A stretch of DNA of 64,000 nt, from positions 29,574,001 to 29,638,000 of the forward strand of contig OX485809.1 of assembly GCA_950295325.1 (NCBI GenBank), in the 5' to 3' direction. The notes below the pieces were generated by a model. That model was given only the letters and a program-made list of their open reading frames with translations, did no database searches and was not told where the DNA came from. Source of the stretch: Polytrichum commune. Taxonomy: Eukaryota; Streptophyta; Polytrichopsida; Polytrichales; Polytrichaceae. Below, piece after piece: positions 16,685 to 64,000 of this stretch (position 1 is the stretch's first letter; the number at the start of each line of letters is the position of its first letter). Made by a program: the position numbers and the translations under genes.

Positions 16685-18789
16685 TGTGAACCCTTAGAGT
16701 GGTCCACCACTCCGCGGGATCACTTTTAGTTAGAGAGATTTTTCCTCTTAGAGAGATTTCCTATAGCTATCCATAGCCATTTCCCATTTATGATTTGGTT
16801 AAGATAACAATTAGTTATGGATTTTCAAAGATGGAGTAGAAAAACTGGGTGGTCTTGTGGGTAGCGGCTGCTGGATCTGACCTGCGAGCCCAATAGGAAT
16901 TTTATTTTAAGAAGTTATATTTTTTCCAAGTAGAACTTTTGTCTAGCTTTCCAAAATTTCTTAGAGCATTTGATTTGAGCATGATTTGAATTAGATATGA
17001 ATTGTGGAAGATGGGACACATAGTTTGAGAACTTTTGGTTGACTGTTGCATTACAGAGGATCTTCTGGGTTCACTTCGGCTTATCTTTCTAATCACATAT
17101 TTTTATCAAATACATATTTTTAATATATTTCCAAGGTCATACAGAACGTTTGATTTGAATACATAGTTTGATATATAGTTTAAGTCTTCTTGATTGACTG
17201 CTGTATTACAAGGAATCTGCTGAATTTTTATTAGCTTAACTTGCTGATGTCATAATTTTTCTACTTAGAACTTGTTCATAGCTTTCCAATGGTATAAGGA
17301 AACCCTAGATCCAAGTAGTAAGGAATGTGCTATGAATTTTAGAAGTTAGATAGGTGGGTTGGAAGGGTCGGTTGAATCGACCTCACACTTCCAACCCTCA
17401 TAACTTTTGCATTTCTTATCCGATTAAAGTGATTTTTAGATCATTGGAAAGATAATTAGGTGCACTAAGTATAAATATTATGCTTAGGATTAAATTACAG
17501 TGCAGAATAAATACTTTATATTTTAATTGTTAACTAAGATACACTTACTACCAAACTAGTTACAAAGAAGGAGGCAAGGTTGACGCTCGGGAAGTGGAGC
17601 AAGGAAGGAGATAGTGGCTCGGCCTATATCAAGCCCAAATCAACCGAAGAGAATTGAGGTAAATTAACTAACCTTAAGCCTTCCATTTAGGGTTGGAGGG
17701 AGCACGGCTAAGGTACGCATCTCTAAACCCACTCACCTATCTCGTAAGGTCAAGTGGCTTAACCACTTGACCGCCAAGGGAATACCCAACTCCATTGTTT
17801 TTGGGCCCCTTGGTATGTTTTATAGTAGTAGCTTCATATATTAACAAGTTTCGTATGTGGTAAGTCGGATTAATTACCGACATAACCACTCTTAATGTTG
17901 TTGGTGGAAATGTAGAATTAATGACCCGCGAATCCACTATATGTTGTTGGCCCCATAGATTGGGAATAATGGCCCCAATTTATGAAGATTGCACAACATG
18001 GTGAACCTACAGGTCGCCCGTCACCCTGGTCCCATTGAGTTGCATTTCGTGGTCTATCCAGTGTAAACACATTTAACAATAAAAACATACAAAATAAATC
18101 ATAAACCTTTGTTGGCAAGAGACCCGAATCGGAAACTTAATTCGGTAGAGTGATACCACTCTTCGAACCATTGATGTTCGAATAGGTTTGAAATGTCATT
18201 CAACCTTCAAAGGACCTGCACGAGCCCTTAGAAGGTTCTGAGGTAAGGGGTGATGCCTAATATGTGAATGTAGTGAGGTAGGACGTGCAAACGAAAATAA
18301 GTAATAAGAAGGAATTTGTGTGAAGGGTGGGACTTAGGCCAAGTTCCTCCACTTAGAAAATATAATAGAACTAAGTAAAAAAATATGAAGAATTAAATGG
18401 TCCATCAAATTGTCATTATTCCGTTCATTGAGCTAGGGTGGTATGAGTCACACCCGGTTGGTGTGTATCATAATCATCTTAATTCACAAATTAGGATTGC
18501 CTTGGTTTCAAGGCTCGTGCGTCTGCGCGTAGAATAGGTTGTAAGTTAAGGTTAGAACTAGATATGAAATTGGTTAGTGGAGTTTAGAGCCACACTAGTA
18601 AAAACCTAAGGCCCAACCTCCGGAGGTACTACGACGCACATTTAATCTCCCTTAAAAATCTAACTACTCACGTTATACACCTATCATCCGGGTTTGCCTT
18701 GGGCACCTGCAAGTGCAGGCCACCTTCACCGAAGGGCTTGTGTGATACTTTTAGGCTCCCTCGAAAGGGGGTGGCCCAAAAGTACCACA
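16685..18789. mobile_element. Family D solo LTR, copy 1
   Basis: A 2105-bp element beginning TGTGAACCC and ending TACCACA, flanked by TSD CCTAA (16680-16684 and 18790-18794). The uninterrupted site is visible in X2 near 27356 (CTAGCCTAACGTGAC). No internal region or PBS is attached, so it is a solo LTR. Short open frames inside are not conserved in the second copy. Compared with copy 2 it lacks about 830 bp near its left end. Confidence 0.85.
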
Positions 18790-18794
18790 CCTAA

Positions 18795-24949: not shown

Positions 24950-26869
24950 TGTGGGGACACGCGAACACCAAAAGTTCCGGATTGGCGGGTTTTTGTGCCA
25001 AATCCGGATATTTCCGGGTGACCTTAGTATCGTCCAGGGATTCTGTGAAGTGTAGGAGGTAGAGACTTTCCGGAACTGTTTGTTTCCCCTCTTCTTTTAT
25101 ATTTTCCGGAAATCCTAGTTTCCGGCCTTTTTGAAGTCCTCCTGTATCCGGAACTTCCTCTTCCGGATTTGACTCCTAAGTCCCAGACGGATTGTTTCCT
25201 CCCTAAAATATCTTTGTACTACGTTCTATCCTCCCTTAATGATGGGTATTTTCCGGTGAAGACGTCCTTCTCTAGAGGGGGGTCCGGATCTTCCCTCACA
25301 ACCAAGCCGGATTGATCAGGTCCGGATTGGCAGGTCACACAGGGAGTCCGGATTACCTCCTAGGACTACAACGACAAGAGGGTGCCGGATTCCACGAAGG
25401 GGGGTAAGCTCAACAGAGTGAAAGAGTGATCCGTACCACGTTCCGGAATATCTTGTCTCTACGCTACTCGGATATCCGGATCGATGGTGTCTCCTTCCCC
25501 CTTCCTCCGGATCTGTATCCCCTCATCCGGAATCCTAACTTACTCCTGTACTTCTCCGGATCTCATCCGGCTAGTACTACCTTTGGCTCTACTGAATCCG
25601 GGCTAACTAGGCGATCCGTACCATTTTCCGGATTGGTCCGTCTAAAGGCGGTGGGACCTCTTCAGAAGCTCGGATGGCATGAATCCGGATCCCTCCCGGA
25701 CTTCACCCAATCCTCCCAGCGGCTATCCCACCTAGACGTTTCCCGACCAGCCGGGAAAATGAGGTTTCCCTCCCACTACACCCGGAAAGGTTCCGGAAGG
25801 TAATGACTAGTGATCTGATCCGGGTCTCCCCTTCCGGCGGACGGATCCGGTATACAACTGCCTGGGGCTCTACTAAATCTGAGATAACTGGGCGATCCGT
25901 ACCACTTTCCGGATTGTTCCGTCCGAGGGCGGTGAGACCTCTCAAAAGATCGGATGGCGTAAATCCGGATCCCTTCCGGATTTTACCCAGTCCTACCAGC
26001 GGCTATCCCACCCGGACGTTACCCAAACATCCGGAATAGTGAGGTTTCCTTCCCACTACACTCAAAAAGGATCCCTAGGCTTGCAACCGGATCTAATCCG
26101 GGTTTCCTCTCCTTTGTTCTATTCGGACTTCCTACTCCTTCCTTACTTCTAGCGTACAACAACCTCCCAATCCGTCCGTGCACAAAACAAATGAGAATAG
26201 GTGAAGATCTAGAGTTTTATTGAGTAGGGAGCAACACAATACAACAATGGAGAAGGAACACTTCTCCAGCTCCTTATTCAGCCTTAAGTAGAGGCTGTGA
26301 TCCCTAACTAAGGGTGGCGGCCCAGGCGGCCGCCCTGGAAAACCCTAACTGCGAGAAATCCGGAACTTCGGACTTTCCGGATTTATCGGAAGATCCGGAA
26401 TTCCCGGATCTTGATCTGCTGACACAAAATTTGAATTGCATGCTCGCCTAAGTCTGATCTACCTATTCCTGCTGTCCTAATTCTGATCTACCTACAGCTG
26501 CATGCCTAAGTCTAATTCAAGTGGTGTGGTGCTTTTTCGCCGCCTTTCCATTTTTGGTTTGACTTGGTAATCCGTTGATGGCGGAAGCTCCTCCTCCGGG
26601 GGCAAAAGAGTCTCCTTGGTTGCTGAAGGCCCTAGCCGCTGAAGGCCCGGTTTGCTCCCGGGATCCGGAATTTGACTTAAATTCCGGTCCGGCCAAAGTA
26701 TCAGTTTTAACCATTTTATCGTGTAAGGCGGAGTTCAAAAACCCATTATTCCTAATACGGCTAAAACACTCAAATAAACCTGATTACCCCTAGGTTAGCA
26801 TGGTAAAATACGGAATTTGGATCCGTATTTCCGTATTTCCGTATTCCGGCGAAAAAGTGGGCTCCCACA
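24950..26869. mobile_element. Family C solo LTR, copy 1
   Basis: A 1920-bp element, TGTGGGGACACG to GGGCTCCCACA, with perfect TSD TGAGC (24945-24949 and 26870-26874). It is strikingly rich in CCGGA/TCCGG words. It carries no recognisable gene; frames at 25426-25803, 25703-25945 and 26575-26793 are preserved only because the two copies are almost identical. No PBS or internal sequence is present, so it is called a solo LTR. Confidence 0.88.
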
Positions 26870-44592: not shown

Positions 44593-46504
44593 TGTGGGAA
44601 CCCACAAACACCAAAAGTTCCGGATTGGCGGGTTTTTGTGCCAAATCCGGATATTTCCGGGTGACCTTAGTATCGTCCAGGGATTCTGTGAAGTGTAGGA
44701 GGTAGAGACTTTCCGGAACTGTTTGTTTCCCCTCTTCTTTTATATTTTCCGGAAATCCTAGTTTCCGGCCTTTTTGAAGTCCTCCTGTATCCGGAACTTC
44801 CTCTTCCGGATTTGACTCCTAAGTCCCAGACGGATTGTTTCCTCCCTAAAATATCTTTGTACTACGTTCTATCCTCCCTTAATGATGGGTATTTTCCGGT
44901 GAAGACGTCCTTCTCTAGAGGGGGGTCCGGATCTTCCCTCACAACCAAGCCGGATTGATCAGGTCCGGATTGGCAGGTCACACAGGGAGTCCGGATTACC
45001 TCCTAGGACTACAACGACAAGAGGGTGCCGGATTCCACGAAGGGGGGTAAGCTCAACAGAGTGAAAGAGTGATCCGTACCACGTTCCGGAATATCTTGTC
45101 TCTACGCTACTCGGATATCCGGATCGATGGTGTCTCCTTCCCCCTTCCTCCGGATCTGTATCCCCTCATCCGGAATCCTAACTTACTCCTGTACTTCTCC
45201 GGATCTCATCCGGCTAGTACTACCTTTGGCTCTACTGAATCCGGGCTAACTAGGCGATCCGTACCATTTTCCGGATTGGTCCGTCTAAAGGCGGTGGGAC
45301 CTCTTCAGAAGCTCGGATGGCATGAATCCGGATCCCTCCCGGACTTCACCCAATCCTCCCAGCGGCTATCCCACCTAGACGTTTCCCGACCAGCCGGGAA
45401 AATGAGGTTTCCCTCCCACTACACCCGGAAAGGTTCCGGAAGGTAATGACTAGTGATCTGATCCGGGTCTCCCCTTCCGGCGGACGGATCCGGTATACAA
45501 CTGCCTGGGGCTCTACTAAATCTGAGATAACTGGGCGATCCGTACCACTTTCCGGATTGTTCCGTCCGAGGGCGGTGAGACCTCTCAAAAGATCGGATGG
45601 CGTAAATCCGGATCCCTTCCGGATTTTACCCAGTCCTACCAGCGGCTATCCCACCCGGACGTTACCCAAACATCCGGAATAGTGAGGTTTCCTTCCCACT
45701 ACACTCAAAAAGGATCCCTAGGCTTGCAACCGGATCTAATCCGGGTTTCCTCTCCTTTGTTCTATTCGGACTTCCTACTCCTTCCTTACTTCTAGCGTAC
45801 AACAACCTCCCAATCCGTCCGTGCACAAAACAAATGAGAATAGGTGAAGATCTAGAGTTTTATTGAGTAGGGAGCAACACAATACAACAATGGAGAAGGA
45901 ACACTTCTCCAGCTCCTTATTCAGCCTTAAGTAGAGGCTGTGATCCCTAACTAAGGGTGGCGGCCCAGGCGGCCGCCCTGGAAAACCCTAACTGCGAGAA
46001 ATCCGGAACTTCGGACTTTCCGGATTTATCGGAAGATCCGGAATTCCCGGATCTTGATCTGCTGACACAAAATTTGAATTGCATGCTCGCCTAAGTCTGA
46101 TCTACCTATTCCTGCTGTCCTAATTCTGATCTACCTACAGCTGCATGCCTAAGTCTAATTCAAGTGGTGTGGTGCTTTTTCGCCGCCTTTCCATTTTTGG
46201 TTTGACTTGGTAATCCGTTGATGGCGGAAGCTCCTCCTCCGGGGGCAAAAGAGTCTCCTTGGTTGCTGAAGGCCCTAGCCGCTGAAGGCCCGGTTTGCTC
46301 CCGGGATCCGGAATTTGACTTAAATTCCGGTCCGGCCAAAGTATCAGTTTTAACCATTTTATCGTGTAAGGCGGAGTTCAAAAACCCATTATTCTTAATA
46401 CGGCTAAAACACTCAAATAAACCTGATTACCCCTAGGTTAGCATGGTAAAATATGGAATTTGGATCCGTATTTCCGTATTCCGGCGAAAAAGTGGGCTCC
46501 CACA
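44593..46504. mobile_element. Family C solo LTR, copy 2
   Basis: A 1912-bp element, TGTGGGAACCC to GGGCTCCCACA, with perfect TSD TGTCT (44588-44592 and 46505-46509). It matches 24950-26869 almost base for base. The visible differences are a few bases near the left end, isolated C/T changes near the right end, and one 8-bp TCCGTATT unit fewer. Confidence 0.9.
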
Positions 46505-48721: not shown

Positions 48722-49690
48722 TAAGTGGTTGATAATGTGTGTAAGCTAGGCCTCTCGGTTTCGAGAGGCTAGAGGATTCAGCCTCTTTGACCAGATTTTG
48801 ATGGTTATTTTTTGGTTGAGGATGTGTGTAGGCTAAGGGTCTCGGTTCCGAGAGGCTAGAGGATTCGGCCCCTTACACCAGATTTTGAAGTTGTTTTTTG
48901 GTTGAGATTGTGTGTAGGCTAAGGGTCCCGGTTCCGAGAGGCTAGAGAATTCAGCCTCTTTGACCAGATTTTGAAGTTGTTTTTTGGTTGAGAATGTGTG
49001 TAGGCTAAGCCTTTTGGTTCCGAGAGGCTAAAAGATTCGGCCCCTTACACTAGATTTTGAAGTTGTTTTGTGGTTGATAATGTGTGTAGGCTAGGCCTCT
49101 CGGTTCCAAGAGGCTAGAGGATTCGGCCTCTTTGACCAGATTTTGATGGTTGTTTTTTGGTTGAGAATGCGTGTAGGCTAAGGGTCTCGGTTCCGAGAGG
49201 CTAGAGGATTCGGCCTCTTTGACTAGATTTTGAAGTTGTTTGTGGTTGATCATATGTGTAGGCTAAAGGTCTCGGTTCCGAGAGGCTAGTGAATTCGGCC
49301 CCTTACACTAGATTTTGAAGTGGTTTTGTGGTTGATAATGTGTGTAGGCTAGGCCTCTCGGTTCCGAGAGGCTAGAGGATTCGGCCTCTTTGACCAAATT
49401 TTGATGGTTGTTTTTTGGTTGAGAATGTGTGTAGGCTAAGGGTCTCGGTTCCGAGAGGCTAGAGGATTCGGCCCCTTACACCAGATTTTGAAATTTTTTG
49501 TGCTTGAGATTGTGTGTAGGCTAAGGGTCTCGGTTCCGAGAGGCTAGTGGATTCGGCCCCTTACACCAAATTTTGAAGTTGTTTTTTGGTTGATCATGTG
49601 TGTAGCCTAAGGGTCTCGGTTCCGAGAGGCTAGAGGATTCGGCCCCTTACACCAGATTTTGAAGTTTTTTTTTGGTTGATCATGTGTGTA
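48722..49690. repeat. Hairpin satellite, block 3
   Basis: About eleven more monomers of the satellite with core CTCGGTTCCGAGAG, ending at ATCATGTGTGTA near 49690. Short minus-strand frames here simply repeat LVKEAESSSLSEPR and are not genes. Confidence 0.85.
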
Positions 49691-50140
49691 CCACACCACA
49701 ACAACCTATCAACCCACGCCCACGTAATGTCTCCCTAATTCTACCCGCATGCACGAGACATGTAAAGCCCTTGTCTACAGCTGTTGGTGCAACACATGAG
49801 AGGGAAGCTATCTTATGAGCGATGAGCAGTGAGCGGTGAGCGGTGAGCAGTATCACATGAGCAATGAGCAGTAACATATGAGCAATGATTCCAAATTTAG
49901 TAAAGACACACAGGTTTAGGGTACACAACCAAAATTTTGACAAATTAATTGCATATTTTCAATTGTAAATTGTCAATATTTTAAATGAAGCACAAGTGAA
50001 AGGGCCCTATTTCCATGGATCATTTAAAACACTTTCAATTCATTGCTGATTTTTATTATAATAATCCAAACCAATACATGTCATTTATTGACATCCTTAT
50101 ACATGTAGTTACAACCAACACTTGCACAACTACTCACATT
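49691..50140. other. Unassigned sequence with GAGC microsatellite
   Basis: AT-rich sequence with a small GAGC(A/G)GT-type repeat at about 49815-49890. I see no supported gene. Confidence 0.35.
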
Positions 50141-50149
50141 CCACAACAC

Positions 50150-50235
50150 CAGCAAGTTCAAGTAGGTGCATAATCTCATTATACGTACATGTAGGTGCCA
50201 TAATTGTGAGCCACTCAAACTGTTCACGGGTTGAG
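50150..50235 (-). pseudogene. Duplicated end of the transposase-like last exon
   Basis: The minus strand repeats the coding end seen at 50685-50765 (a YNE block followed by LLELAG(V/I)VECE) with several changes. It is a partial local duplication of the 3' end of the neighbouring gene, about 540 bp downstream. Confidence 0.6.
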
Positions 50236-50299
50236 TTAAGGCCCAAAATCTACAAATGAAAGGAAATTAGATATTAGAAATAATCAATATGTAGGTAAC

Positions 50300-50510
50300 T
50301 ACTAGGTTTTGAGACATCCACCTGTGGATGCGAGTTGTGTAAGAGACTGGTATTAGGTCTGTATCAACCCGGGTTCGAATCCGGTTGGTTACATTGACTG
50401 GTGCTATCCCAAATTGAGCTAGTGATAAAGTAGGAATAATCTATAGGCGGATACCAAGAAAACGTTACTACGCGGATGTGCGTAGAATCTTATCAATTAT
50501 TTTTTATTTT
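50300..50510 (+). mobile_element. Possible SINE fragment with B box
   Basis: Contains a perfect pol III B box GGTTCGAATCC near 50370 in a tRNA-like arm (CCCGGGTTCGAATCCGG). A weak A box-like GATGCGAGTTGTGTAAG lies about 50 nt upstream, and the 3' side is T-rich. No TSD was identified. It lies between the last exon of the transposase-like gene and its duplicated end. Confidence 0.35.
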
Positions 50511-51836
50511 TAGAAACTTGTTATTATTTATCCATGTCAATCAATCAAACCGCTCACGGTTGGGTCGTACTGAATCATTTGAAATACTTCCAGCCCATTG
50601 CTAATTTTTATTATAAAAATCCAAACCAAAACATGTCATATTTTGACATTCAAATATATGGTACTTAATAGACCATTTGCAATACTACTCACACTCTACA
50701 ATACCAGCAAGTTCAAGTAGTCGCATGACCTCGTTATAGGTATATATAGGTACATGAATGAACTTGTCACTCTCGTAATCCACCTTGCACAAAAATCTAA
50801 ACACATAATAAAGATGTTTACAATACACCCATTTTCCTTTCTTTCCCAATGCATGAGAGGACATTTTCGTGAAATCCGGGCATGTGTAATGCGGGATGTC
50901 GCCAATTGTGACATGATATGTGATATCATGCTTGGAGACAATGTTGATTATCACTACAAAGCCCGGATATGGAATGGCAGTGACCCCAACCACATAGTAA
51001 CCCTCCATGAGTCCGGCGCCATTTGTTTTTGTGATCCACTAGCGGTGCTGTTGGATTACGACGAACTGTCTTCCCAAACCTGAATGTAGGGTGGGCGTCC
51101 GGGTTTGGTGGCATAGAAAAATGTGAGCGAGGGATGGGGAGAGTTGCGATTGTTGAAAGCCTACAACGAGGGGACAATGCCTCCCTCTGCTGTAGTTGAA
51201 ATCTAGCATCTTCAAGTGCCAAAACCTCCTCTCGCGATAGATTGGTACCTATCTTCACCGGCCACGTGTTGGGTACTATAGGCCAGTCCAACACATATTT
51301 CTTCTTACTGCCACTCACACAACGTTTGATATCGTCAGGGCAAAACCAAAATTCATACTCCACATTGTTGGGAGAGTGAAATTCCTTCCTGAGCCCTTTG
51401 TATGTTGGAGCAGGTGTGCCATGTTTCCCAGTTCCGACTTTGGCATTGCACATAGTCCCTGTGATGGCCTGCAGTGCCCAACATCGTTTGGCTGAGTTAG
51501 GTGGTAATCTTGCAATGTGCCACTTGGAAGCAAGACAATCTGTCTCTAACACGGATGTAGTATGAGCCACACCATGAATTGCAGAACTCAACGATTCCTC
51601 TATGCGTTGACGAGTTGCTCGGGTGTTGGGACGAGGAATGGAATAATTCACTTTGTCGGGTCGATGAGAGTCACAATCAGCACCCGGTGGTAGGTTGAGT
51701 TTGCGTTTGGTGGAACCAAAGAGCTTTGACCCTTCCAATGCACAATCTCTAGTGTTGACGTCTTCTGCCCCTGGATAAGACTTCATGGCATCGGCCAACA
51801 TTTTTGGATCTCCACACCTGGCAGCCGCTTTGAGTT

Positions 51837-52045
51837 TCAAGGATGCCGAATCAGGACCTTTACCATCAAACCCCCTTTCAACCATGTCCGGTAATTTGCA
51901 ATTTGCATGAAGGCACGGATCATGTCGTCCATTGTAGCTTCATATAAACAAGTCATCTTGTTGCCGGACTGTTGGAGCCATTTGTTGTGTACAGTCTCTG
52001 CAAGGTTGCATGTTAGCATTTCCGCACGCTCTTCTATTGTCATAT
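51837..52045 (-). pseudogene. T2 exon 2, first segment
   Basis: Reads TIEERAEMLTCNLAETVHNKWLQ and MDDMIRAFMQIANYRTWLKGG, clearly homologous to T1 at 4240-3935 (MTAEEFAQMPNCNLAEF...FLKGG). The frame is lost in a C/G homopolymer just after LKGG, and the homologous reading resumes in the 51885 frame (GKGPDS). Confidence 0.7.
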
Positions 52046-55017
52046 TGTGAACCCTTTGAGTGGTCCACCACTCTGCGGGATCACTTTTAGTTAGAATGTT
52101 AGCATTAAAAGTTAGAATTGATAGGGAATTTAGGGAAAATTAGTTCATTTAGCATTTAACCTAGAAAAAGGAAGGTCAAAATGAAACTAAGTAGTGCTAG
52201 AAGATAGCAAAGTAGAAAAAATATGCTAGCTAGTAAAAGCAACTAGCTAAGCAAATATTAGTAGATGCTAGCTATTAAGCAAATGTTAGTAGATGCTAGC
52301 TAAGCAAGTGTTAGTTTATTAGTTAGTGTGAGGCACACAAGACTATTGGAGGTGTTTTGCGTAAGAAGACAAAACCGGCTTGAAGACTTTTGAAAAAAAT
52401 TAGAAAGAGAGCAAGGGGGCTACTTGCCCACTTGCCCCCTTGCCAACTCGATGGCGGAAAAATTAGAAAGATTTCTAAAGGTTCTTTGTCGGAGCCACCT
52501 CGGCGAGAGGGTGGCAACCTCAACTGGGAAAAACCCCCGAGCCAAAATTTCGGGAAAGGGTTTGAAAAATGGATCCGGTGGAGGAGGGGTCCAACCCTTT
52601 TGTGAGAGGGTTTAAAAACCCCTCCTTCCACCTTGTAGGAACTCTTTCTTTTTCTAGTTTTTGGGCGAAGCCCTGCTTCAATGTAGTTAGGAAAAAATCC
52701 TTTAGCATGTATTCTCAATGGCTTAAGACAAGGGCTTGAGAAACTCCTCTACTCTCTCTCCTAGTTAGAATGTGTGTTTATTAACACACCAACAAAATTA
52801 TTCCTTCTTTTGTAGAGGTAGGTTGGATGTTAGAGTTTTGAGTGGAGGCATTGTAGACCTCATCTGCCAATGCCCTGAAGGCTTAGTTCAGAAGCTGGAA
52901 CAAGATACTTATCATTTTTCTCTTAGAGAGATTTCATATAGCTATCCATAGCCATTTCCCATTTGTGATTTGGTTAAGATGACAATTAGTTATGGATTTC
53001 CAAAGATGGAGTAGAAAAACTGGGTGATCTTGTGGGTAGCGGCTGCTGGATCAGACCTGCAAGCCCAATAGAAATTTTAATTCTAAGAAGTTATATTTTT
53101 CCCAAGTAGAACTTTTGTGTAGCTTTCCAAAATGGCTTAGAACATTTTATTTGAGCATGATTTGAATTAGATATGAATTGTGGAAGCTGGGACACATAGT
53201 TTGAGAACTTTTGGTTGACTGCTGCATTACAGAGGATCTGCTGGGTTCACTTCGGCTTACCTTTCTAATCACATATTTTTATCAAATACATCTTTTTAAT
53301 ATCTCTCCAGGGTCATATAGAAAGTTTGATTTGAGTTTGATTTGAATTAGATATGAATTGTTGAAGGCGAGATACATAGTTTAAGCCTTCTTGATTGACT
53401 GTTGTGTTACAAGGAGTCTGCTGAATTTTTATTAGCTTAACCTGCTGATGTCATAATTTTCCTAGTTAGAACTTGTTCATAGCTTTCCAATGGCATAAGG
53501 AAAGCCTAGATCCAACTAGTAAGGAATGTGCTATGAATTTTTGAAGTTAGAAGGTAGATAGGTGGGTTGGAAGGGTCGGTTGAATCGACCTCACACTTCC
53601 AACCCTCATAACTTTTGCATTTCTTATCCGATTAAAGTGATTTTTAGATCATTGGAAAGATAATTAGGTGCACTAAGTATAAATATTATGCTTAGGATTA
53701 AATTACAGTGCAGAATAAATACTTTATATTTTAATTGTTAACTAAGATACACTTACTACCAAACTAGTTACAAAGAAGGAGGCAAGGTTGACGCTCGGGA
53801 AGTGGAGCAAGGAAGGAGATAGTGGCTCGGCCTATATCAAGCCCATATCAACCGAAGAGAATTGAGGTAAATTAACTAACGCTAGCCTTCCATTTAGGGT
53901 TGGAGGGAGCGCGGCTAAGGTACGCATCTCTAAACCCACTCACCTATCTCGTAAGGTCAAGTGGCTTAACCACTTGACCGCCAAGGGAATACCCAACTCC
54001 ATTGTTTTCGGGGCCCTTGGTATGTTTTGTGGTAGTAGCTTCATTTATTAGCAAGTTTCGTGTGTGGTAAGTCAGATTAATCACCGACACGACCACTTTG
54101 AATATTGTTGGTGGAAAGGTAGGGTTAATGACCCGCGAATCCACTATTATGTTGTTGGCCCCATAAATTGGGAGTAATGGCCCCAATTTATGAACATTGC
54201 GCAACATGTTGAACCTACAGGTCGCCCATCACCCTGGTCCCATTGAGTTGCATTTCGTGGTCTATCCAATGTTAACACACCTAACAATCAAAACATACAA
54301 AATAAATCGTGAACCCTTGTTGGCAAGAGACCCGAATCGGAAACTTAACTCGGTAGAGTGATACCACCCTTCGAACCATTGATGTTCGAATGGGTTTGAG
54401 ATGTCATTCAACCTTCAAAGGACCTGCACGAGGCCTTAAAAGGTTCCGAGGTAAGAGGTGCACCAACCAGGTAAGGGGTGATGCCTAATATGTGAATATA
54501 GTGAAGTAGGAGGTGTAAACGAAAATAAATAATTAAGAAGGAATTTATGTGAAGGATGGGACTTAGGCCAAGTTCCCCCGCTTAGAAAACTAAATAGAAC
54601 TAAATAAAGAAATAGAAAGAATTGAATGGTCCATCAAATTGTCGTTATTCCGTTCGTTGAATTAGGGTGGTATGAGTCACACCCGGTTGGGTGTATCAGA
54701 ACCATCTCAATTCACAAATTAGGATTGCATTGGTTTCAAGGCTGGTGCGTCTGCGCGTAGAATAGGTTGTACGTTAAGGTTAGAACTAGATATGAAATTG
54801 GTTAGTGGAGTTTAAAGCCACACTAGTAAAAAACTAAGGCCCAACCTCCGGAGGTACTACGACGCATATTTAATCTCCCTTAAAAATCTAACTACTGACG
54901 TTATACACCTATCATCCGGGTTCGGCTTGGGCGCCTGCAAATGCAAACCACCTTCACCGAAGGGCTTGTGTGATACTTTTAGGCTCCCTCGAAAGGGGGT
55001 GGCCCAAAAATACCACA
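52046..55017. mobile_element. Family D solo LTR, copy 2
   Basis: A 2972-bp element, TGTGAACCC to TACCACA, with perfect TSD CATAT (52041-52045 and 55018-55022). It lies at the splice acceptor/exon 2 boundary of T2. The segment 52095-52920 is absent from copy 1. Nothing in it looks like a retrotransposon gene. Confidence 0.88.
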
Positions 55018-55079
55018 CATATCCTATGAACAACACACAAATACAAGGATAAGACAAATATAAGATAGATTATATATCT

Positions 55080-55262
55080 AGGTTTGGGTCGTTTGACCCA
55101 AAATGGCTGCCATGTTTGGGTCGAACGACCCAAACTGTTTGCGTAGTTTAGGTCGTTCGACCCAAACTGCCTACAAGGTTTGGGTCGAACGACCCAAACT
55201 GCCTGCCACATTTGGGTCGTTCAACCTAAACTGCATACAAGGTTTGGGTCGAACGACCCAAA
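55080..55262. repeat. Inverted-repeat array P1 in a T2 intron
   Basis: Six units of about 30 bp, each an inverted repeat GTTTGGGTCG-NN-CGACCCAAAC. The 2-nt centre alternates TT and AA from unit to unit. It lies in non-coding sequence between two copies of the exon 2 start of T2. Confidence 0.85.
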
Positions 55263-55400
55263 CTATTTGTTGTTTGTTGTGTACAGTCTCTGCAAGGTTG
55301 CATGTTGGCATTCTCGCACGTTCTTCTATTGTCATATCCTATGAACAACACAGAAAGACAAAGATAAGAAAAACATAAGATATATTACATTGAGTAATAA
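55263..55400 (-). pseudogene. Duplicated T2 intron end and exon 2 start
   Basis: Repeats, with a few changes, the sequence that once spanned 51984-52045 plus 55018-55080: TTGCAGAGACTGTACACAAC coding sequence and the intron end TTGTTCATAG on the minus strand. This copy keeps an intact acceptor (AG before GATATGACAATAG) but its exon is cut by array P1. Confidence 0.7.
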
Positions 55401-55418
55401 AATTTGATATGTACTTAC

Positions 55419-57533
55419 AAGTAGCATATGACCACCCCATTGTTTATAACGAAAGTGCCAAAATCCCAACCACTCTGAAAGGCCAAAAATGCCTTCTTCG
55501 GAGGCAGCTCCAGATGACAACCACCAAGAACGAATCACATGGTACTTGGTCTCAGCGTCGTCCATTGTTTTCGCGTCTTTGTAATCCTTGCATATTTGTT
55601 TATGTTAAAATTGCAAGAATGGTTTGATATACTTTTGGGTCACCTTATCCAAGCTTGCGGACCAATGGAAAAGACATGTACGCTCACGTGCAACCATGGG
55701 TACTCTTGGATCACCATCCCCGTAAATCGCCCTCACCGCATTCCAATTAGCTTGAGCACTATCAGCCATAAACCCTTTGAAGTTTATGTTTGGTACACCA
55801 TTTTCTGCCATGACAGCATTCAAATTTTCCCAAAAGAGAATTTGTCCTGCACCATCTTCAGATTGCATGTCACAACACGCAATAGTTAACACTTTACAGT
55901 ATCGACTGTCGTACACATGGCAAGCCATGGTCGTCCAGTCCTTCAAACGTTTAACATGGTCAAACATAATCCATGAATTTTCCATATCCCCACCGACTTG
56001 CATCTTCTTCATAAGCTCCACACCACTACCTGGAAGGTCTACAGATATCTTCAAAACAAAAACTTTGTCCTTTGACTGCCCTGGAAATCGACTACCATGG
56101 ACGAATTTGAAAGCAGAGTGGTCTTTGAGCGCCATAATACTATCCATAGTTCCCATTCCACTACGCAAAAAACGCTTTGATCCAAATACAAAGTTACGAC
56201 AATTTGGAGACGCAAGAGTGCTGAATTTGTCCATGACGACCTCTAGGGATGAACCAACCAAGTGATGGCCTTCGACATTTGCGGGAGATTTGAAAAGGTA
56301 ATCCGCCAAGAATTGTTTGCTCGCCGCCATAACTATGGCTGAATTTTTTGTTGTGGGTGTTTTCAATACTTCATTTGCAACGCATTGGTATGCCATGTCC
56401 AATGATTCACGGCATGCGCCATTGGCTACAGGCTGATCATGTACACCAAGATGAATGCAAGCCTTGGACATTCCAACGGATGTGGAGTGGATGTATATGA
56501 TTCGAGCATTACACAAAGCAATGCACACAGGTGTGGAACGACATACCTTACACACGACAGTGGACTTAGTAGGGGAAACAACACCCACAGCAAATGGGAT
56601 AGGAGTTGAACCGGCCCATTCAGTGTTGTTCCGGAGGCCTCCATTGCGATTCATGTAATCACAGTAGTTATTATGATATTGGAGATGACCAGTACAAGTA
56701 GAGCGCCGAAAGGACAGTCCAAAGTCATTTTGGATATTCGTGGTTTTGGTGGTGCACCAAGGGTGACCGTCGCATATTTTGTCCATGCCGTCCATTGAGC
56801 GACCATACGTATTTGGAGCTTTGAGTGGCACAGGAGGCAAGAGAAACAAAACATCACCATTAAAAGAAGATGGTAAGTACTTGACCTCATGAACATCTAT
56901 ACTGTCAAAATCAATGGATGCAAGATCGGACTTTGATATTTTTCTTGACTTTGTCAACTTCAAGGCATCAACCATAGTCAACCCTGTAGATGAAGGTGAA
57001 GGGTGTAGTGGAGGACGTTGAGAAGGTGAGATTTGGGGAATCACCTTCTTGTACATAAGACCGCAAGGGGATTTGGCTACATGTATAGGAAGTTGGGAAG
57101 GAATAGAATGAACACTTCTAAATGGAAATGGCGATGTGTTTGAAAGATCAATATATGCACAAATGTTATCTTCTGAATCTGATAGCACAAACACACTATC
57201 ATCAAGGGGTTCCACCTTAACAAGTGCGATAGAGGGAATTTGAATTGTAGATGTACCGGATTCGTTTGTCAAAATGACAGTTGAAGCTTGCATCTGAGAC
57301 TCACAAAGTCCTATCATCCTAAATGAACCAGGTCCTAAGATCCACATAAAACCAACATCAGTTCTATTTTTTGGAACCAAAATCGTTTCATACACCTCTC
57401 CATCTGCAGAATACATCTCATGCTCTAAATACATGCTCAAACTAAATAAATCCTCTGAAACACTCACATGACCATCATCTTGGAATGGCAAGATGAAGGG
57501 AACAAAAGATCCATGAGCTCTAATGGTAGCCAT
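55419..57533 (-). pseudogene. T2 exon 1, transposase-like core
   Basis: About 704 codons in one frame with a single TAA. Residues 1-330: Ser/Pro-rich with no recognised domain. About 300-350: Cys/His cluster. About 400-530: unknown. About 535-690: the core conserved with T1 (HVYDSRYCKVLTIACCDMQS, then FKGFMADSAQANWNAV, then ERTCLFHW). The D/N/A block and the C-x-F-H-W block recall MULE transposases (second Asp, then CxxH). Long single-frame length and conservation with T1 argue for a real gene that decayed recently. Confidence 0.7.
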
Positions 57534-58057
57534 AGAAAATAAAAATAAAACATATGAACAACACATCATAAAAATATGGGGTGAATGTTGCTTTTGTATA
57601 GAGTTGTGTGAGGAAATGAATGGAAATGAAAACGTGTAATACAATAATGGATGGAGATGAAAGCGTGTGATACATAGCATCTAATAATACATATATGGAC
57701 ATAACACAATAATAGTTAGAAAATATTTACGAGCAAGATATACACAAAATGGCGTCAAATACTAAAAGTATTGGTAAAAATTTAAAATATATATGTGTGG
57801 ACTGACGTAGATGTAGAAAGAATTAAAATTGGTTGGAAAAATAAATTATTGATCATTATGAATAGAACAAAGTAGGTGTCAGAAAATTTTGGCGGATATA
57901 ACAAAAATAAACACATAATGACAAACGCGTAAAAATATCTCGTTCATTGAACGCCAATTACAACATGTGATCGTAATATATGCCGGATTTTGTGAGATAG
58001 ATACATTGGAAGAATAAATGATAATACCTGACAGAAAACATATCATAGACACCAACG
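57534..58057. promoter_or_regulatory. Divergent intergenic region between T2 and ParB-methyltransferase gene
   Basis: 524 bp separates the two divergent start codons (57533 minus, 58058 plus). It is AT-rich. It is the expected place of a bidirectional promoter. No specific element can be assigned by eye, and neither of the intronic palindrome motifs occurs here. Confidence 0.4.
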
Positions 58058-58339
58058 ATGGTGGACGATGTAGAGAGGACACCCGTGAGGCCGAAGAGAA
58101 GACGTAGGAAAGCTTTGTATTTTACTTCCGAGAAAAAGAGGTTCAGCCTGAGTATGGGAAAGAAGAATGCAAATAAGGAAGGGAAAAGAAACTTGTTGAA
58201 TACGGTAGAAGAAACTGTGAAGACACTGGATTTTGATGCGATGGAGGATGATGAAGGTGCAAAGAGCAAAGAAGATGTAGACGATCGTATATCAAAGTCC
58301 GAATTGAAGACGGGTTCAAAGAAGACGGCAAACAAAAAG
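58058..58339 (+). pseudogene. Exon 1 of the ParB-methyltransferase gene
   Basis: 94 codons ending in phase 0 at AAAAAG before GTAAGT. Lys/Arg-rich with an N-terminal PKRRRRK nuclear-localisation-like run and an acidic middle. Joining to GAC at 60188 keeps the frame across the long intron, which supports the gene model. Confidence 0.65.
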
Positions 58340-58429
58340 GTAAGTCAGTTCAACATTCACATAATTTGATAGTGCATAAGTTATAAGTTAGGACGGAGAA
58401 CCTTGTACGTTCACTCACATGTCATGTAG

Positions 58430-58765
58430 TATCAATTTATAGAGGTTATAAATTGGAGAGAAGAAACCCTATACATTAATGCACATGGTATATAACAGGA
58501 ATTTAGGAAGGCTAGAAGTCAGGAGGAGAACGCACAGGGTTTATAAGAACAACTTAGGAGGTGAGAAGTTGGAAGGTAAAACCCTGTACGTTAACGCACA
58601 GGGTTTATAAGAGCAACTTAGGGAGGCCAAAAGTTGGGAGCTAAAACCATGTGCGTTAACGCACATGCTTTGTGATAGCAACTTAGGAAGGCCAAAAGGT
58701 GGGAGGAGAAACCCTGTGCGTTAACGCACAGGGTTTGTAAGAGCAACTTAGGAGGCAAAAAGTTG
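58430..58765. repeat. About 65-bp tandem repeat with GTTAAC palindromes, P3a
   Basis: About five units with AGCAACTTAGGAAGGCCAAA and a palindrome around GCGTTAACGC (perfect at 58711-58734, imperfect at 58581-58604 and 58648-58667). It lies in the first intron of the ParB-methyltransferase gene. Confidence 0.8.
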
Positions 58766-59200
58766 GGAGGTCAAACGACTAGAAGAGCCCAAAAGTAAAA
58801 CAAATATCTATTGTATAAATTTAAATCAATGTTCAGAGCGTAGGAGCAAAAAAACTATTCAAAACGGGGTTAGAATGCAAGAAATGAGAAATATGTCTAC
58901 TCAAGTATTCATGCAATATGTTATAGGAGCTAGAAAATAACACAAAATAACATAATTTTTTTCTTGCCCCGAAACCCAAAATCTACGAGGTGGCCCAAAA
59001 CAAGGAAATAGATAGAAGAATGAGAAAAGAAAATGATTTCAAACCAAAACAACATATCAGAAGAATTTGTAGCTACGGAAATTTAAATAATATAGCATAT
59101 TTTTGTGTTTTTTTTGGACCCCATTAGCATTTTTTCCAGATTTAAAAGTTTTGGCAAATCTACCAATTCCAGACTCGGCCCTGGAATTTTAAATTCATGT
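58766..59200. other. Intron sequence without visible features
   Basis: AT-rich part of the first intron. No coding or repeat structure is recognised. Confidence 0.4.
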
Positions 59201-59297
59201 CTAGGCCCTGTGCGTTAACGCACAGGGTCTATGCGCTAATGCACAGTGGCCTCAAAGTCGCCAGCGCAGACCCTATGCGTTAACGCACAGGGTCTAC
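59200..59297. repeat. GTTAAC palindrome cluster P3b
   Basis: Two strong palindromes centred on GCGTTAACGC (59206-59229 and 59268-59294) with an imperfect one between them (GCGCTAATGC). Confidence 0.8.
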
Positions 59298-59526
59298 GCT
59301 AGCAACTTTCTAACGGCTATGCGGGGCCACGAAGAGCCACGCTAAATATGGCTGCAGGGACGAGTAGTATAAATTGCCACACCTCCAAAGCATTCAGTCT
59401 TTTTTCTTTCATCTGTCGGACCTGAGCTCGTCGCTGCAAGCTCTCTCATCTACAGGTGCAGTACAAGGTTTGTTTGCACTTTCGTGATGACTCGGTAATT
59501 GCGCATAATCAGGCGTAAATTGCGGT

Positions 59527-59915
59527 CAGTTTGGGTCGTTCGACCCAAACTGTGAGTATGGTTTGGGTAGAACGACCCAAACTGTCTACCTAGTTTGGGT
59601 CGAACGACCCAAACTGTCTACCTAGTTTGGATCGAACGACCCAAACTGTGAGCATGGTTTGGGTCGCTTGACCCAAACTGTGAGCGTGGTTTGGGTCGTT
59701 CAATCCAAACTGTTTGCCTAGTTTGGGTCGAACGACCCAAACTGTCTGCCTAGTTTGGGTCGAATGACCCAAACCACGCTCATAGTTTGGATCGAGCGAC
59801 CCAAACCACGCGCAGAAAGTTTGGGTCGTTCGACCCAAACTGGCTATAGGCGATTTGGGTCGCTCGACCCAAACTTTCTGCATGGGCAGTTTGGGTCGCT
59901 CGATCCAAACCTCGC
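59527..59915. repeat. Inverted-repeat array P2 in the ParB-methyltransferase intron
   Basis: About twelve units of the same inverted repeat as array P1 (GTTTGGGTCG-NN-CGACCCAAAC) with 2-nt centres AA, TT, CT, AG or AT. The period is about 31-33 bp. Translated frames here are mere repeats (VWVERPK, FGSLDPN) and are not genes. Confidence 0.87.
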
Positions 59916-59946
59916 GCCTAACTTTGGTAGACCTGTAGTTGGACAC

Positions 59947-59978
59947 ACAGACCCTGTGCGTTAACGCACAGGGTCTGT
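59947..59978. repeat. Perfect 32-bp palindrome P3c
   Basis: A perfect 32-bp palindrome centred on GCGTTAACGC, with outer arms ACAGACCCTGT and its complement. It is about 210 bp upstream of exon 2. Confidence 0.88.
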
Positions 59979-60187
59979 CCTTGCAGTTTTGGGGTGAGCG
60001 GCCACCATAATCGTACAATATTTGAAGGTGCAATTGGCAGTGTCTAGAATAATTTTTGTCATTCTTCCATGTGTTCGTGGTATTATGTTGTTATTGTTGT
60101 TGCTATTGCTGATGTTTTTGTAATGTTATTGCTAATGTATTGGTACTGGTTTTGAAATATTTATGAAATTTATTTCATTTGTTTTAG

Positions 60188-60914
60188 GACCAATCAATGG
60201 ATTTGGAGATAACGACTCCTATTTCTACTGATGATGATTCCACCTTGCATTCAACTCAAGATCGTCCATCTCAACAAGTTCATCATCATCAGGACATATC
60301 GTCAAATCTTCATAATAAGAAAAATAAGAAAATAAATGAATCCCTCGATGATTTTGATTCGGATGAAGATAATGATGGTGATAATAAAATTTATCAAGAG
60401 AAAGTGTAGGAGCTTACGAACAAACGAAAGCTCAATTCCACTTCCACAATTTCCTCAATCCGTGCTGGACCTAATGCTCGCTTGCGTGTACCTTTATGTC
60501 GCATGGTTCCTATGCCGATTGTGCGTCCTGCTTTGAAGGGTGACATTACTAAATTGGAGGCTGATTTTTTCAATGGTTATCGTGATGGTGACCGTGTGTT
60601 TTATATATCTGCCACCGATTCTAAGGGAAACTTTCAATTCGTGGATGATGAGGTTCGCGCATCTTGGAGCCCAAATTGGGCTCAAGCCAATTCCCTGTTT
60701 GAATCTCAATTGGATACAGATTTGTCATTGACGTCATACAAGAACAAGATGTTTTTTATATGGGATGGAAATCACAGATTTTTTGCTTGGAAAAATTATA
60801 TTGACCGTATATATACCGAAGATTATGAACGTCATGTCTTTGTGGATTCTATCATTTTGGCGCCCGAGCCTGACAACATTCCAAGTTTGTTGACTCCTAT
60901 ACATGACATCAACA
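60188..60914 (+). pseudogene. ParB-like exon
   Basis: Starts DQSMDLEITTP after a TTTTAG acceptor. There is an acidic Asp/Asn/Gln-rich region (residues about 1-70 of the exon) with an in-frame TAG at 60407-60409, then a folded-looking domain from about 60500: VPLCRMVPMPIVRPALKGDI, DRVFYISATDSKG, and WDGNHRFFAWKNY at about 60762-60800. The last matches the ParB/sulfiredoxin-like G-N/H-H-R-x-x-A signature. It ends near HDINK at a weak GTATTG donor. Confidence 0.65.
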
Positions 60915-61305
60915 AGTATTGTTCTAACCTATTATTTTACACTTATTTCTAGTTTATATTTTTTTCCAAATTATTTCATCATGAATCTAATCAATTTAAT
61001 GTTTTTTTCAAATCAACCGAAAATTCTCACGTATCCACCAATTTGGTGCATACTTTATATCAGATGCAAAGTATTGGCACCATGCCTTTGATTTCTTCAG
61101 AAAGCAACTGGATCCAAAGAGTTATAAACGATGTGAGGAGAAGTCCGTCGAAACTTGGTATTCTTTTACACGACCAATTTTTTTGGATTACATGTACAGT
61201 GTAAGTTCTTCTACCATTGCTAATATGTGCCTTATGTTTATTCATCTTCATTTTACATTACATCTATATGTACTTATAAATATTGATTTTTATTTTATTT
61301 TTCAG

Positions 61306-61920
61306 CAAGAACTTGCTGAGGCTAGCGATATTGCTCTCAACCAGTACAATGAAACTCATCCTCTTAAACGGACATGAGACGGAATTTCAAAAGCAATGTC
61401 CGCAGCTGTCAACAAAAAACGTGCAATGTTATCTTCTAGTTTTATGAAACAACTAGCAATTGCCGACATCAACCTTACCTCTGCTTTCCTTGAAGAAGTT
61501 AAGCACCATTGGGGTTCATTTTCGGTGCCTGAAATGCTACAAGAAAAACTTCATCGTGTTGCTGTCAGTAATGTGGATGCAGAAGTCAAAGTTGGATGGC
61601 TCAAGCTTTGGAATGGCAATAGATTTGACAAAGATGCATTGCATTTTCCAAAATCGCCCCTCTCTGATTCTGCACTTGATGGTTGGTTATCAAAGTCTAC
61701 ATATTGGGCACAGTTGGAAAAAAAAGCTATCGAAGAGCTTCAAAGTATTCTTTCATCTCCTCTTCAGTTGCCTGCAGATGTGCCTACTCTCTCCGAGTAT
61801 ATCCAAACCTGGAAGTTTGCGGCTTTCAATTCAATATTCTATCGTGAATTCCAAAGCGGAAAAGTTAAAAAACACAACGGTTGGGATGAGCAACCTAATG
61901 TTGATCTTGCTATGAAACGT
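61306..61920 (+). pseudogene. Middle exon of the ParB-methyltransferase gene
   Basis: Starts QELAEASDIALNQYNE after a TTTTTCAG acceptor; TGA at 61375 interrupts; it continues ISKAMSAAVNKKRAMLSSSF and a helical region with ADVPTLSEYIQTWKF. No catalytic motif is recognised. The preceding exon (about 61009-61200) reads FGAYFISDAKYWHHAFDFF to LDYMYS before GTAAGT. Confidence 0.6.
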
Positions 61921-62021
61921 GTATTATACATGTACAACCTAATCTTATTATTTCTTTTATTTCTTTTATTCCATTTGTCAAATTGTCATAGAATATTTGA
62001 CTAACAATATTTTGTGTGTAG

Positions 62022-62661
62022 GTATTTTCGATATGTTTTGATTCCACATAAATGCGTTATAAAGGAACCTCATTTTTTCCCAAATTGGCGTAACACTGGT
62101 GCAAGAGATTCATGCATGTTCACTACTGAGATTTGTTTGGATTGGTCGCTCCCATACTATGAGGATTGTGGTTGGTATCTTGATTGTCCTAAGGATGCAT
62201 GTCCGTCAAGTGAGAAGACAATCCGTCAGATAAATTATGCTAAAAATGTGGATCCTCGTGATACTGCAATTTTGTAAGCACAAATTGTGCAACTTAAACT
62301 TAAAGAGCCAGAACCAAAAGAGACAAAACGTCGTAAGAAGAAACATGTTCCTGAAACCAAAATACAAGGTCAATCGGAAATTTCACAACATGAAGAATTG
62401 CTTGTTCTTTCCAATGATTTGGATAAGAATCCACTTGGAGGCGAAAGTTCAAAGTCTGGGTGCGATGTATTGGAATTTCATTACTCCAGCACCTATGACG
62501 CTATTCATCGTGCGCCAACGGATATTTTGAGAAAAGAGTTATTCATACTAAAGAACTTTCTCACGCTCTCGTTTGCTCGATCTACTGCTGTCAAGAACAA
62601 GTCTGAAGGGGTGGATGTAGGCCCTCCTGAGTAGATCCAATTACGGGAATTTATTAAAAAC
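62022..62661 (+). pseudogene. Cys-containing exon of the ParB-methyltransferase gene
   Basis: Reads YFRYVLIPHKCVIKEPHFFP, then CGWYLDCPKDACPSSEK, a possible small metal site. After the stop at 62275 comes a basic stretch (KETKRRKKKHVPE) and an acidic-to-aromatic region (YSSTYDAIHRAPTDILRKEL). A second stop (62632) precedes a GTAAGT donor. Confidence 0.6.
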
Positions 62662-62755
62662 GTAAGTATTATTGTTTTGGTATTTTCTCTAATGTTCTTA
62701 CTTTCATTTGGGTTTTATTTTGTGTCTTATATTGTGATATGTTGTGGTATTTCAG

Positions 62756-63651
62756 TTCAATGACAATCGCGAATTTCATGTCATGGGAAGTCCGACTCCC
62801 TTTGCCGTTGACTTGGTTTTTCTCCAATTTCCCGACGGTCTTGACTTCAACCTCTCCAATAGACCTGCTGAAATTCCTCTTTAGAATAAATATAACAAGA
62901 ACTGGATGGTTGCAACAATGTCCTTGTGCAAGTCCATCTTGTCTGATGATGGCGTCCTCATAGTATTTTCTGCTATCGATATGCAAACCAAGAAGGTTTT
63001 GAATTCAACCTTACACAACGGCAACATGAAAGTTCTTAGGACTTTTATTTGCCTCAATTCGTACATGGTGTTCAAGGATCCGGAGTCTCCAACCTACACC
63101 GTAAGTATAACACATCACAATTGTTTCTATTTAATTATTTTGGTGTTATTTGCATTGTATATAGTTTTAACACAATTTACATTTTTTTGTAGACTCCGGC
63201 ATTTATGGCTCATGTCTTGGTAAGGGATTTTACTACCACAAAATCCACGAGACAACCAAATTCCACTTTTTTTGGCACTGGATTGAAAAGCAAAAACTTG
63301 CTTTTCAATTTTGTGGATGAAAAAAACATGCTTCTTCAAAAATCGAGAAGACCTTGGAGGGGGCCATATCAAAAATCGCCGCGTTTTTTTTCAAGATCTT
63401 ATTGAATTGTTTACACCATCGAATGGACGCGTTGTTGATTTGACATGTTCCACTGGAGCTTCTATCCTAGCAACACGCGCATGTGGCAGGCATCTTCTTG
63501 CATTTGAGGGTGATAATGACATGTTTTAGCACATATTGAAACCGCTTTTGGAAAACATTTTGAAAGAGGGGTCATCTAAGAAGAATATACAAGATCTCAC
63601 AAAAGAAGATGATGACCTCTCGGATGAGGAGATGCTTGAATTTGAGTGTGA
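62756..63651 (+). pseudogene. Methyltransferase catalytic exons
   Basis: Exon 62756-63100 has VDLVFLQFPDGLD followed about 30 residues later by WMVATMSLCKSILSDDGVLIVF, the strand-helix-strand expected after motif IV in N4-cytosine/N6-adenine methyltransferases. Exon 63193-63651 has RFFQDLIELFTPSNGRVVDL and TCSTGASILATRACGRHLLA, the motif X/I region. The usual (D/N/S)PP(Y/F/W) is replaced by LQFP. Stops at 62883 and 63526 and the T-run slip disable this copy. Confidence 0.65.
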
Positions 63652-63759
63652 GTAAGTCTTAATACAATAAATTTTTATTCAATTCATTCGTTTCATTCAA
63701 TTCATTGGTTCATTTTTATTTCTTCACATTATTTACATGTTTCATTGATTTGATTTCAG

Positions 63760-64000
63760 GAATACGATTGGAAAGAGGACATGTCTCCCGTTTTGGGCAC
63801 ATAGACAATTCCTACGAAGTCCAAGCCGTAGTCCGCGTCTCCCATCATATGCCGAGAATGTTGCAATTGCAATGTTGAATCTCGAAGATTCGGATCCAAA
63901 TGAAGAATCTTGCTATAGTTCCAAAATCAATTCGCAATGCAAAGGTGCTCGAATATATATAGATGATGAGGCAAAAGATAGTTTCATGTCTAGTGCTACT
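63760..64000 (+). pseudogene. Last visible exon, cut by the window edge
   Basis: An open frame from a TTTCAG acceptor to the window end: NTIGKRTCLPFWAHRQFLR, a Ser/Pro/Arg run, then acidic DSDPNEES. Phase 2/1 joining with 63651 is consistent. No domain is recognised; it is probably a C-terminal tail of the methyltransferase protein. Confidence 0.55.

Follow-up and report, generated by a model that had tools for sequence, protein, structure and literature searches.

A decayed two-gene Mutator-type DNA transposon of Polytrichum commune with a putative ParB- and methyltransferase-like gene and intronic palindrome arrays

The window analyzed here, 64,000 nucleotides of the Polytrichum commune genome (GenBank assembly GCA_950295325.1, contig OX485809.1, positions 29,574,001 to 29,638,000 of the forward strand), holds a two-gene DNA transposon whose closest described counterparts belong to several element types. 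In the available text of PMC5735166 and PMC10398659, VANDAL elements carry motif arrays, which are tandem repeats in introns and upstream regions, with copy number and sequence that differ between related families. The element Sola1-1_Ec32 of Ectocarpus carries a ParB-methyltransferase gene of 1104 amino acids on the strand opposite to its transposase, and the accessible part of that report (PMC12477816) points, through its references 50 and 51, to similar proteins of transposons in green and red algae. The pairing of a ParB and methyltransferase gene with an opposing transposase is thus already known, and the new two-gene transposon class proposed for this locus in an earlier note, made from the letters of the window, was too strong a claim. 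Retrotransposon cytosine methyltransferases are reported to methylate CG de novo, and DIRS elements carry Dam-like adenine methyltransferases, according to PMC5890265.

As the earlier note had seen, two long intron-containing genes start on opposite strands of the window, gene 1 with an ATG at 57533 (minus) and gene 2 with an ATG at 58058 (plus). The two starts are 525 bp apart (524 bp in the note). Together the genes constitute one DNA transposon, which we regard as virtually certain, and this transposon is very probably of the Mutator type; the window copy is a decayed member of a high-copy family. The element extends from 49800 to 64195 (L009:195), so that its right end lies 195 bp beyond the window. 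It measures 14,396 bp with a nested insert of 2,972 bp, and the family size without the insert is about 11.4 kb. These limits replace the pair beginning at 50685 that had been described before: the unit is longer on both sides, both genes are broken, and an insert resembling a long terminal repeat (LTR) element interrupts gene 1.

49790 to 49799, unstranded: target-site duplication on the left side, CAACACATGA, with an identical 10-bp sequence after the right end, outside the window
49800 to 64000 within the window (right end 64195), unstranded: transposon, from homology to other copies and right-end mapping
49800 to 49851, unstranded: left terminal inverted repeat, imperfect, with a TGAGCGG-type minisatellite, from alignment to the right end
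57534 to 58057, unstranded: intergenic region between both start codons, with a CpG observed/expected ratio of 1.25 versus 0.62 for the whole window

Ten element copies were examined in detail, window copy included. Among the first seven copies compared, homology begins at 49800 in six and at 49799 in one, and all ten have a left end at the position matching window 49800 (49799 in L006), with flanks that are all different. Each left end starts with GAGGGAAGCTATC or a one-letter variant. In every one of the seven copies with both ends, the element is enclosed by 10-bp target duplications (CAACACATGA, CCGCGAAAGT, GCTAAAATCT, ATTGGATGCC, ATGGTAGCAT, CTTGCCCCTT, and GACCCCCCCT); in the other three (L002/10/11, L006/18/19, and L026/27), no right end was found within the fetched stretch. 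The terminal inverted repeats are imperfect and about 45 to 52 bp long. Alignment of one end to the other scores 50, and when the left end was shuffled 500 times the score never exceeded 27. Extension past 64 kb and alignment of copies, the check that the earlier note had named, thus yielded the right end, the terminal repeats, and the target duplications. Gene 1 was also considered as a separate element and rejected: terminal-repeat alignment of the left side with the intergenic region scored 27, against a shuffle maximum of 30.

The two genes travel together across the genome. Searches covered 407.8 Mb, and the copy and match counts obtained from them are lower bounds. The 3′ piece of gene 1 has at least 40 long matches at 96 to 100% identity, self included (best 40 of 920 candidates), and the junction 57000-58400 was matched in 40 of 40 scored places (37 at full length, three nearly so) at 92 to 100% identity, again with self included (of 285 candidates). 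In the expected direction and no more than 12 kb away, exon 6 of gene 2 accompanies 38 of 40 junction places and 33 of 40 gene-1 places. By chance, about 0.002 per place would be expected; the comparison drew on 139 of 150 exon-6 matches, these being 150 of 762 candidates. A single mobile unit had been proposed earlier, with the reservation that copies of the two genes might never be adjacent or that copy boundaries might fall between them. The copies instead have common outer boundaries around both genes, and the mobile unit is upheld by these boundaries, the 10-bp duplications, and the genome-wide co-occurrence.

Gene 1 encodes a Mutator-like transposase with a zinc-finger region, an RNase H core, and a SWIM finger, of which the RNase H-fold core and the SWIM-type end had been anticipated.

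55419 to 57533, minus: gene 1 exon 1, with N-terminal domain, zinc-finger region, and RNase H core; in-frame TAA at 55605
50685 to 52045, minus: gene 1 exon 2, with third catalytic acid (NLAE) and SWIM finger; two frameshifts in the window copy
50016 to 50196, minus: duplicate of the gene 1 3′ end, about 80% identical, present in other copies too
52046 to 55017, minus: LTR-like insert of 2,972 bp nested in gene 1, with TG...CA ends and a 5-bp duplication (ATATG)

The catalytic residues in an open gene-1 copy are D532, D598, and E728; the two aspartates and a C-x2-H motif are conserved among gene-1 relatives. The core follows the order strand-strand-strand-helix-strand-helix, and the best fold match of the protein is the ISCth4 transposase; GCM and WRKY domains are weaker fold matches for its zinc-finger region. 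The SWIM finger reads C-x-C-x19-C-x-H in the open copy L026; its first Cys is Tyr in the window copy and Ser in L006, and is retained in eight of nine other copies. Four features of Mutator-like elements (MULEs) are found here: a target duplication in the 8-11 bp range (10 bp), terminal inverted repeats, a SWIM finger, and a DDE RNase H fold with a C-x2-H insertion. No Pfam match to a curated MULE model was obtained for the transposase records P0001 and P0002, and among 44 relatives two matched Transposase_mut, 0.034 being the best value. No gene-1 relative was found in the viral contigs searched.

Gene 1 is open in two of the ten copies. The window gene is broken by the TAA at 55605, by two frameshifts, and by the nested LTR-like element, which copies spanning the site do not have there. 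Within the window, this insert and 16682-18793 are 91.5% identical, and L017 has a further copy next to the point where its gene-2 match ends. The second, damaged gene-1 copy placed earlier at 3.9 to 4.9 kb is indeed a damaged relative (3860-4944), but belongs elsewhere: it is an incomplete fragment from another family of this transposase, one richer in GC, with about 60% identity to gene-1 relatives and without gene 2 beside it.

Gene 2 is predicted to encode a protein of roughly 1,070 to 1,170 amino acids.

58058 to 58339, plus: gene 2 exon 1, charged and without a recognized domain; splice to exon 2 inferred
60189 to 60915, plus: gene 2 exon 2, putative ParB/sulfiredoxin-like domain with the WDGNHR motif; a TAG at 60407 replaces the Trp of the alignment consensus
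61012-61200, 61306-61918, and 62022-62661 (ends approximate), plus: gene 2 exons 3, 4, and 5; stops at 61375, 62275, and 62632
62756 to 63100, plus: gene 2 exon 6, methyltransferase-like, with the non-canonical motif IV VDLVFLQFPDG; TAG at 62882
63193 to 63650, plus: gene 2 exon 7, with the region of motif I (VVDLTCSTGASILATRACGRHLLAFEGD); the window copy has a frameshift here and a TAG at 63527
63760 to 64000, plus: gene 2 exon 8, whose stop codon in other copies falls just past the position of the window's end

The window gene 2 contains six in-frame stops (60407, 61375, 62275, 62632, 62882, and 63527) and frameshifts in exons 3 and 7. Four further listed stops were discounted, as they are located in introns or in another frame, and a frameshift in exon 3 first taken as shared is really a 1-nt deletion in the window copy. 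An alternative start at 60197, after a TATA-like box near 59370 and with a 5′ untranslated intron, was considered and is kept in view because the signal of selection is weaker in exon 1, with a ratio of nonsynonymous to synonymous substitution rates (dN/dS) of 0.41-0.76 in three pairs.

Both regions noticed earlier in gene 2, a ParB-like motif (WDGNHRFFAW in exon 2) and a permuted amino-methyltransferase-like core, were seen again, with domain assignments that are weakly supported. A search of the protein collection with exon 2 gave 44 relatives, whereas a protein search with the joined gene-2 reading returned none, probably because the relatives are predicted exon by exon. WDGNHR is present in P0046, P0065, and P0079, the latter two at 41 to 46% identity. 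The predicted structure of exon 2 is of moderate quality (mean predicted local distance difference test score, pLDDT, 66) and is consistent with a ParB-like domain, a weakly supported call. Exons 6 and 7 match a PHROG DNA methyltransferase (1.6e-6), with the motif order permuted, IV then I. Motif I, DLTCSTG (DLTAGTG at a distant locus described below), is close to canonical. The canonical motif IV of amino-methyltransferases is [D/N/S]PP[Y/F/W]; in gene 2, five of six copies have VDLVFLQFPDG and the remaining one (L014) has QFPDD, while the distant locus has MDLIIAEYPDG. Of the pair of features that marks N4/N6 amino-methyltransferases, motif I and a canonical motif IV, gene 2 thus has the former and lacks the latter. 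The earlier proposal that gene 2 binds and methylates DNA accordingly survives in its first half, binding being plausible; methylation is unsupported because the catalytic motif is non-canonical in all six copies and at one distant locus. The methyltransferase region had no counterpart in the phages searched, the ParB exon no relative in the prokaryote contigs searched, and a search of solved structures by sequence gave nothing meaningful. A fragment of a distant relative of the gene-2 methyltransferase (51% identity) lies at L027:4873-4971, near another element copy.

Introns of both genes contain arrays of short palindromes. The P1 unit is TTTGGGTCG-NN-CGACCCAAA, mostly repeated in 32-bp steps.

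55083 to 55262, unstranded: P1 array of six units with a 32-bp period, in the gene 1 intron
59530 to 59909, unstranded: twelve-unit P1 array, in the first intron of gene 2
58583 to 58732, unstranded: three P2 palindromes with a 65-bp period, expanded to 64 units in another copy
59207 to 59291, unstranded: two further P2 palindromes, by motif match
59953 to 59972, unstranded: a single P2 palindrome, by motif match

The window has 18 P1 sites (34 strand-matches) and six P2 sites, with 0.00 expected from shuffles in each case. All fall between 55083 and 59972, and none lies left of the element in the window. The earlier picture of one inverted-repeat family in the introns of both genes applies to P1; P2 is confined to the gene-2 side in the window. 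Across 13 of the 18 P1 units, those with a next unit at 32 bp, mean conservation was 0.957 in the arms, 0.718 in the spacer, and 0.54 in the 2-bp core. One of 20,000 random column sets was as extreme as this contrast between arms and spacer, which was weakened by shifting the frame.

P1 and P2 are present in all ten copies in varying numbers. The gene-1 intron has 1 to 6 P1 units in every copy, seven copies have P1 on the gene-2 side, and P2 ranges from 3 to 12 units in nine copies and reaches 64 in L020 (L020:2005-6158; steps of 63 to 65 bp, with one 128-bp step among those shown). Neither unit occurs in nine adjoining loci, which comprise flanking sequence (L009 after its first 195 bases, L013, L015, and L023), the right part of an element with its flank (L021 and L025), and sequence beyond the last recognized element part, without a right end (L011, L019, and L027). 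In one protein record, P0073, a P1 unit is fused to exon 2 of gene 2. No P1 was found in the viral contigs searched.

Comparison of gene 2 between copies shows purifying selection on its exons 2 to 5 during the divergence of two subfamilies. In copies c8 (L024/25) and c9 (L026), these exons are diverged from the others (synonymous divergence, dS, 0.13-0.58) next to a gene 1 with a dS of about 0.05; the elements are therefore mosaic. Across this subfamily divergence, exons 2 to 5 have dN/dS values of 0.04-0.32 in three pairs, and whole gene 2 gave 0.15-0.24 in 12 of the 14 pairs linking c8 or c9 to another copy. Losses also occur: L014 is without 59246-62297, and L016/17 without most of gene 2. 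Exon 6 is present twice in L024/L025.

The same gene arrangement recurs at the single distant locus examined (C3:41958500-41971499, L032/L033), one of 11 exon-6 matches at 38 to 39% identity. A gene-1 relative on the minus strand, with in-frame stops, has 43% identity over residues 208-490 and 34% over residues 1-123; its remainder lies beyond the fetched sequence. The plus strand carries relatives of gene-2 exons 4, 5, 6, and 7 at 35 to 46% identity. The divergent gene order is retained. In the place of P1 and P2, this locus has a different array with a period of about 75 bp over some 6.4 kb.

Three further repeats were observed. An 86-bp tandem array of 11 copies (48726-49690) lies to the left of the insertion site and stops about 110 bp short of it. 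A dispersed repeat resembling a short interspersed nuclear element, with a tRNA-like B box (GGTTCGAATCC), lies inside the 3′ part of the element (50204-50551) and also at L013:2-350. Two open frames, 25408-25803 and 45051-45446, have identical 131-codon translations and are part of a within-window repeat.

We lean toward the explanation that this is a two-gene Mutator transposon in which gene 2 is a predicted reader of the element's own arrays. The gene-2 product would be a DNA-binding accessory protein with a ParB-like domain and a methyltransferase-like domain, the latter possibly binding cofactor without the standard catalytic motif. It may bind the P1 and P2 arrays of its own element cooperatively, the spacings of 32 and 64 to 65 bp being close to three and six helical turns, and might then shield the element from host silencing or else mark it for expression or movement, in a VANC-like manner. 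That gene 2 binds DNA at all is likely; whether P1 and P2 are what it binds seems to us evenly poised, and an anti-silencing role, drawn by analogy, is somewhat doubtful. Several observations count against this explanation. P1 was not found on the gene-2 side of c3, c4, and c6, the array at the distant locus has no short palindromes, and the ParB exon was not found there. Several relatives have a changed WDGNHR motif (e.g., P0048, P0054, P0060, and P0084); 13 of 14 Protein Data Bank fold matches of exon 2 are ParB, Noc, or sulfiredoxin, all of them weak (E 2.2-8.0); and no ParB-type Pfam match above noise was obtained for exon 2 or its 45 aligned members. Exons 6 and 7 align with positions 30-217 of 221 of the Pfam N6_N4_Mtase profile at E 0.0052 and 17.2 bits, below the cut-off of 26.7. 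Gene 2 is broken or incomplete in all ten copies examined, versus a gene 1 open in two. The two remaining c8/c9 pairs, both with c3, have a dN/dS of 0.43, the close c8-c9 pair has 1.29, and other close pairs have 0.36-0.81, the values of the close pairs being as expected for decaying copies; exons 6 to 8 have too few differences for a selection test, and the evidence that gene 2 was under selection in the spreading lineages comes essentially from one subfamily split.

Were the gene-2 product instead an active DNA amino-methyltransferase, bound to the arrays and modifying the element with N6-methyladenine or N4-methylcytosine, the permuted motif order, the near-canonical motif I, and the PHROG match would be accounted for, and the proposal made for the Ectocarpus Sola1 accessory protein in the available text of PMC12477816 would be a precedent; given QFPDG, QFPDD, and EYPDG in the place of motif IV, we consider this improbable. 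About as improbable is a protein that aids transposition itself by binding arrays or ends and assembling a complex, like a partition or targeting protein with no epigenetic role: the weak ParB-like fold signal and the ordered, nearly helically phased arrays would fit, but the arrays are intronic rather than terminal, and the subterminal repeats carry a different sequence (TGAGCGG). Tandem arrays grow easily, as the 64-unit P2 array illustrates, so P1 and P2 may be merely expanding intronic satellites with no bound protein. The higher conservation of P1 arms than of spacer at fixed spacing in two separate arrays, and the absence of units from the adjoining loci, make this unlikely. Finally, the gene-1 relative at 3860-4944 stands without gene 2, and 7 of 40 gene-1 places have no exon 6 within 12 kb, as if two unrelated elements lay side by side by chance; this is refuted by the common boundaries, the duplications around the pair, the co-occurrence, and the same order at the distant locus.

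The likeness to the VANDAL/VANC system of Arabidopsis rests on a Mutator-type element, a second protein, intronic and upstream arrays, gain and loss of repeats from copy to copy, and a different array in a distant relative (available text of PMC5735166 and PMC10398659). In the same text, VANC has DUF1985/DUF287, neither of which gave a Pfam match in the gene-2 regions scanned, whereas gene 2 has the ParB-like and methyltransferase-like regions; moreover, the motifs here are palindromic, and the lifting of silencing from motif-bearing copies, which characterizes the second protein of VANDAL elements, is suggested here by analogy. A more far-reaching reading, which we judge less likely than not, is that a non-VANDAL Mutator-type transposon has independently evolved self-recognition, in which a ParB-like, catalytically altered methyltransferase would bind fast-changing intronic arrays and counter silencing only on its own family. 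If gene 2 reads the arrays, this would be a second, independent case in which a transposon uses short repeats to recognize its own copies and protect them, the reader being a partition protein of prokaryotic type, and the variation of arrays between copies and families makes coevolution of reader and target directly testable.

Among MULEs as surveyed in PMC6446971, whose accessible text describes a DDE core, a SWIM finger, 8-11 bp target duplications, and sometimes an antisense second open reading frame, the present element fits in structure; it differs in that the survey mentions methyltransferase and ParB 0 times and in that the transposase has no Pfam MULE match. Like the elements in the available part of PMC5890265, it carries a methyltransferase-type gene, but those are retrotransposons. 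In the literature searched, which leaves most subscription journals outside, we found no description of a Mutator-type host element with a ParB-methyltransferase gene, nor of an altered motif IV common to a distant relative, conserved palindrome arrays, or divergent pairing in a distant relative. Among the papers listed, PMC12477816 is the one found to report a transposon gene of the ParB-methyltransferase kind. With Sola1-1_Ec32, as described in the accessible text of PMC12477816, the element shares an opposite-strand second gene of similar length, whose ParB-like and amino-methyltransferase domains are putative here; it differs in its Mutator-type rather than Sola1 transposase, its 10-bp target duplications, and the non-canonical motif IV and palindrome arrays described here. 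If the proposed reading of arrays by gene 2 is true, it would supply a function for the ParB-methyltransferase genes noted in algal transposons.

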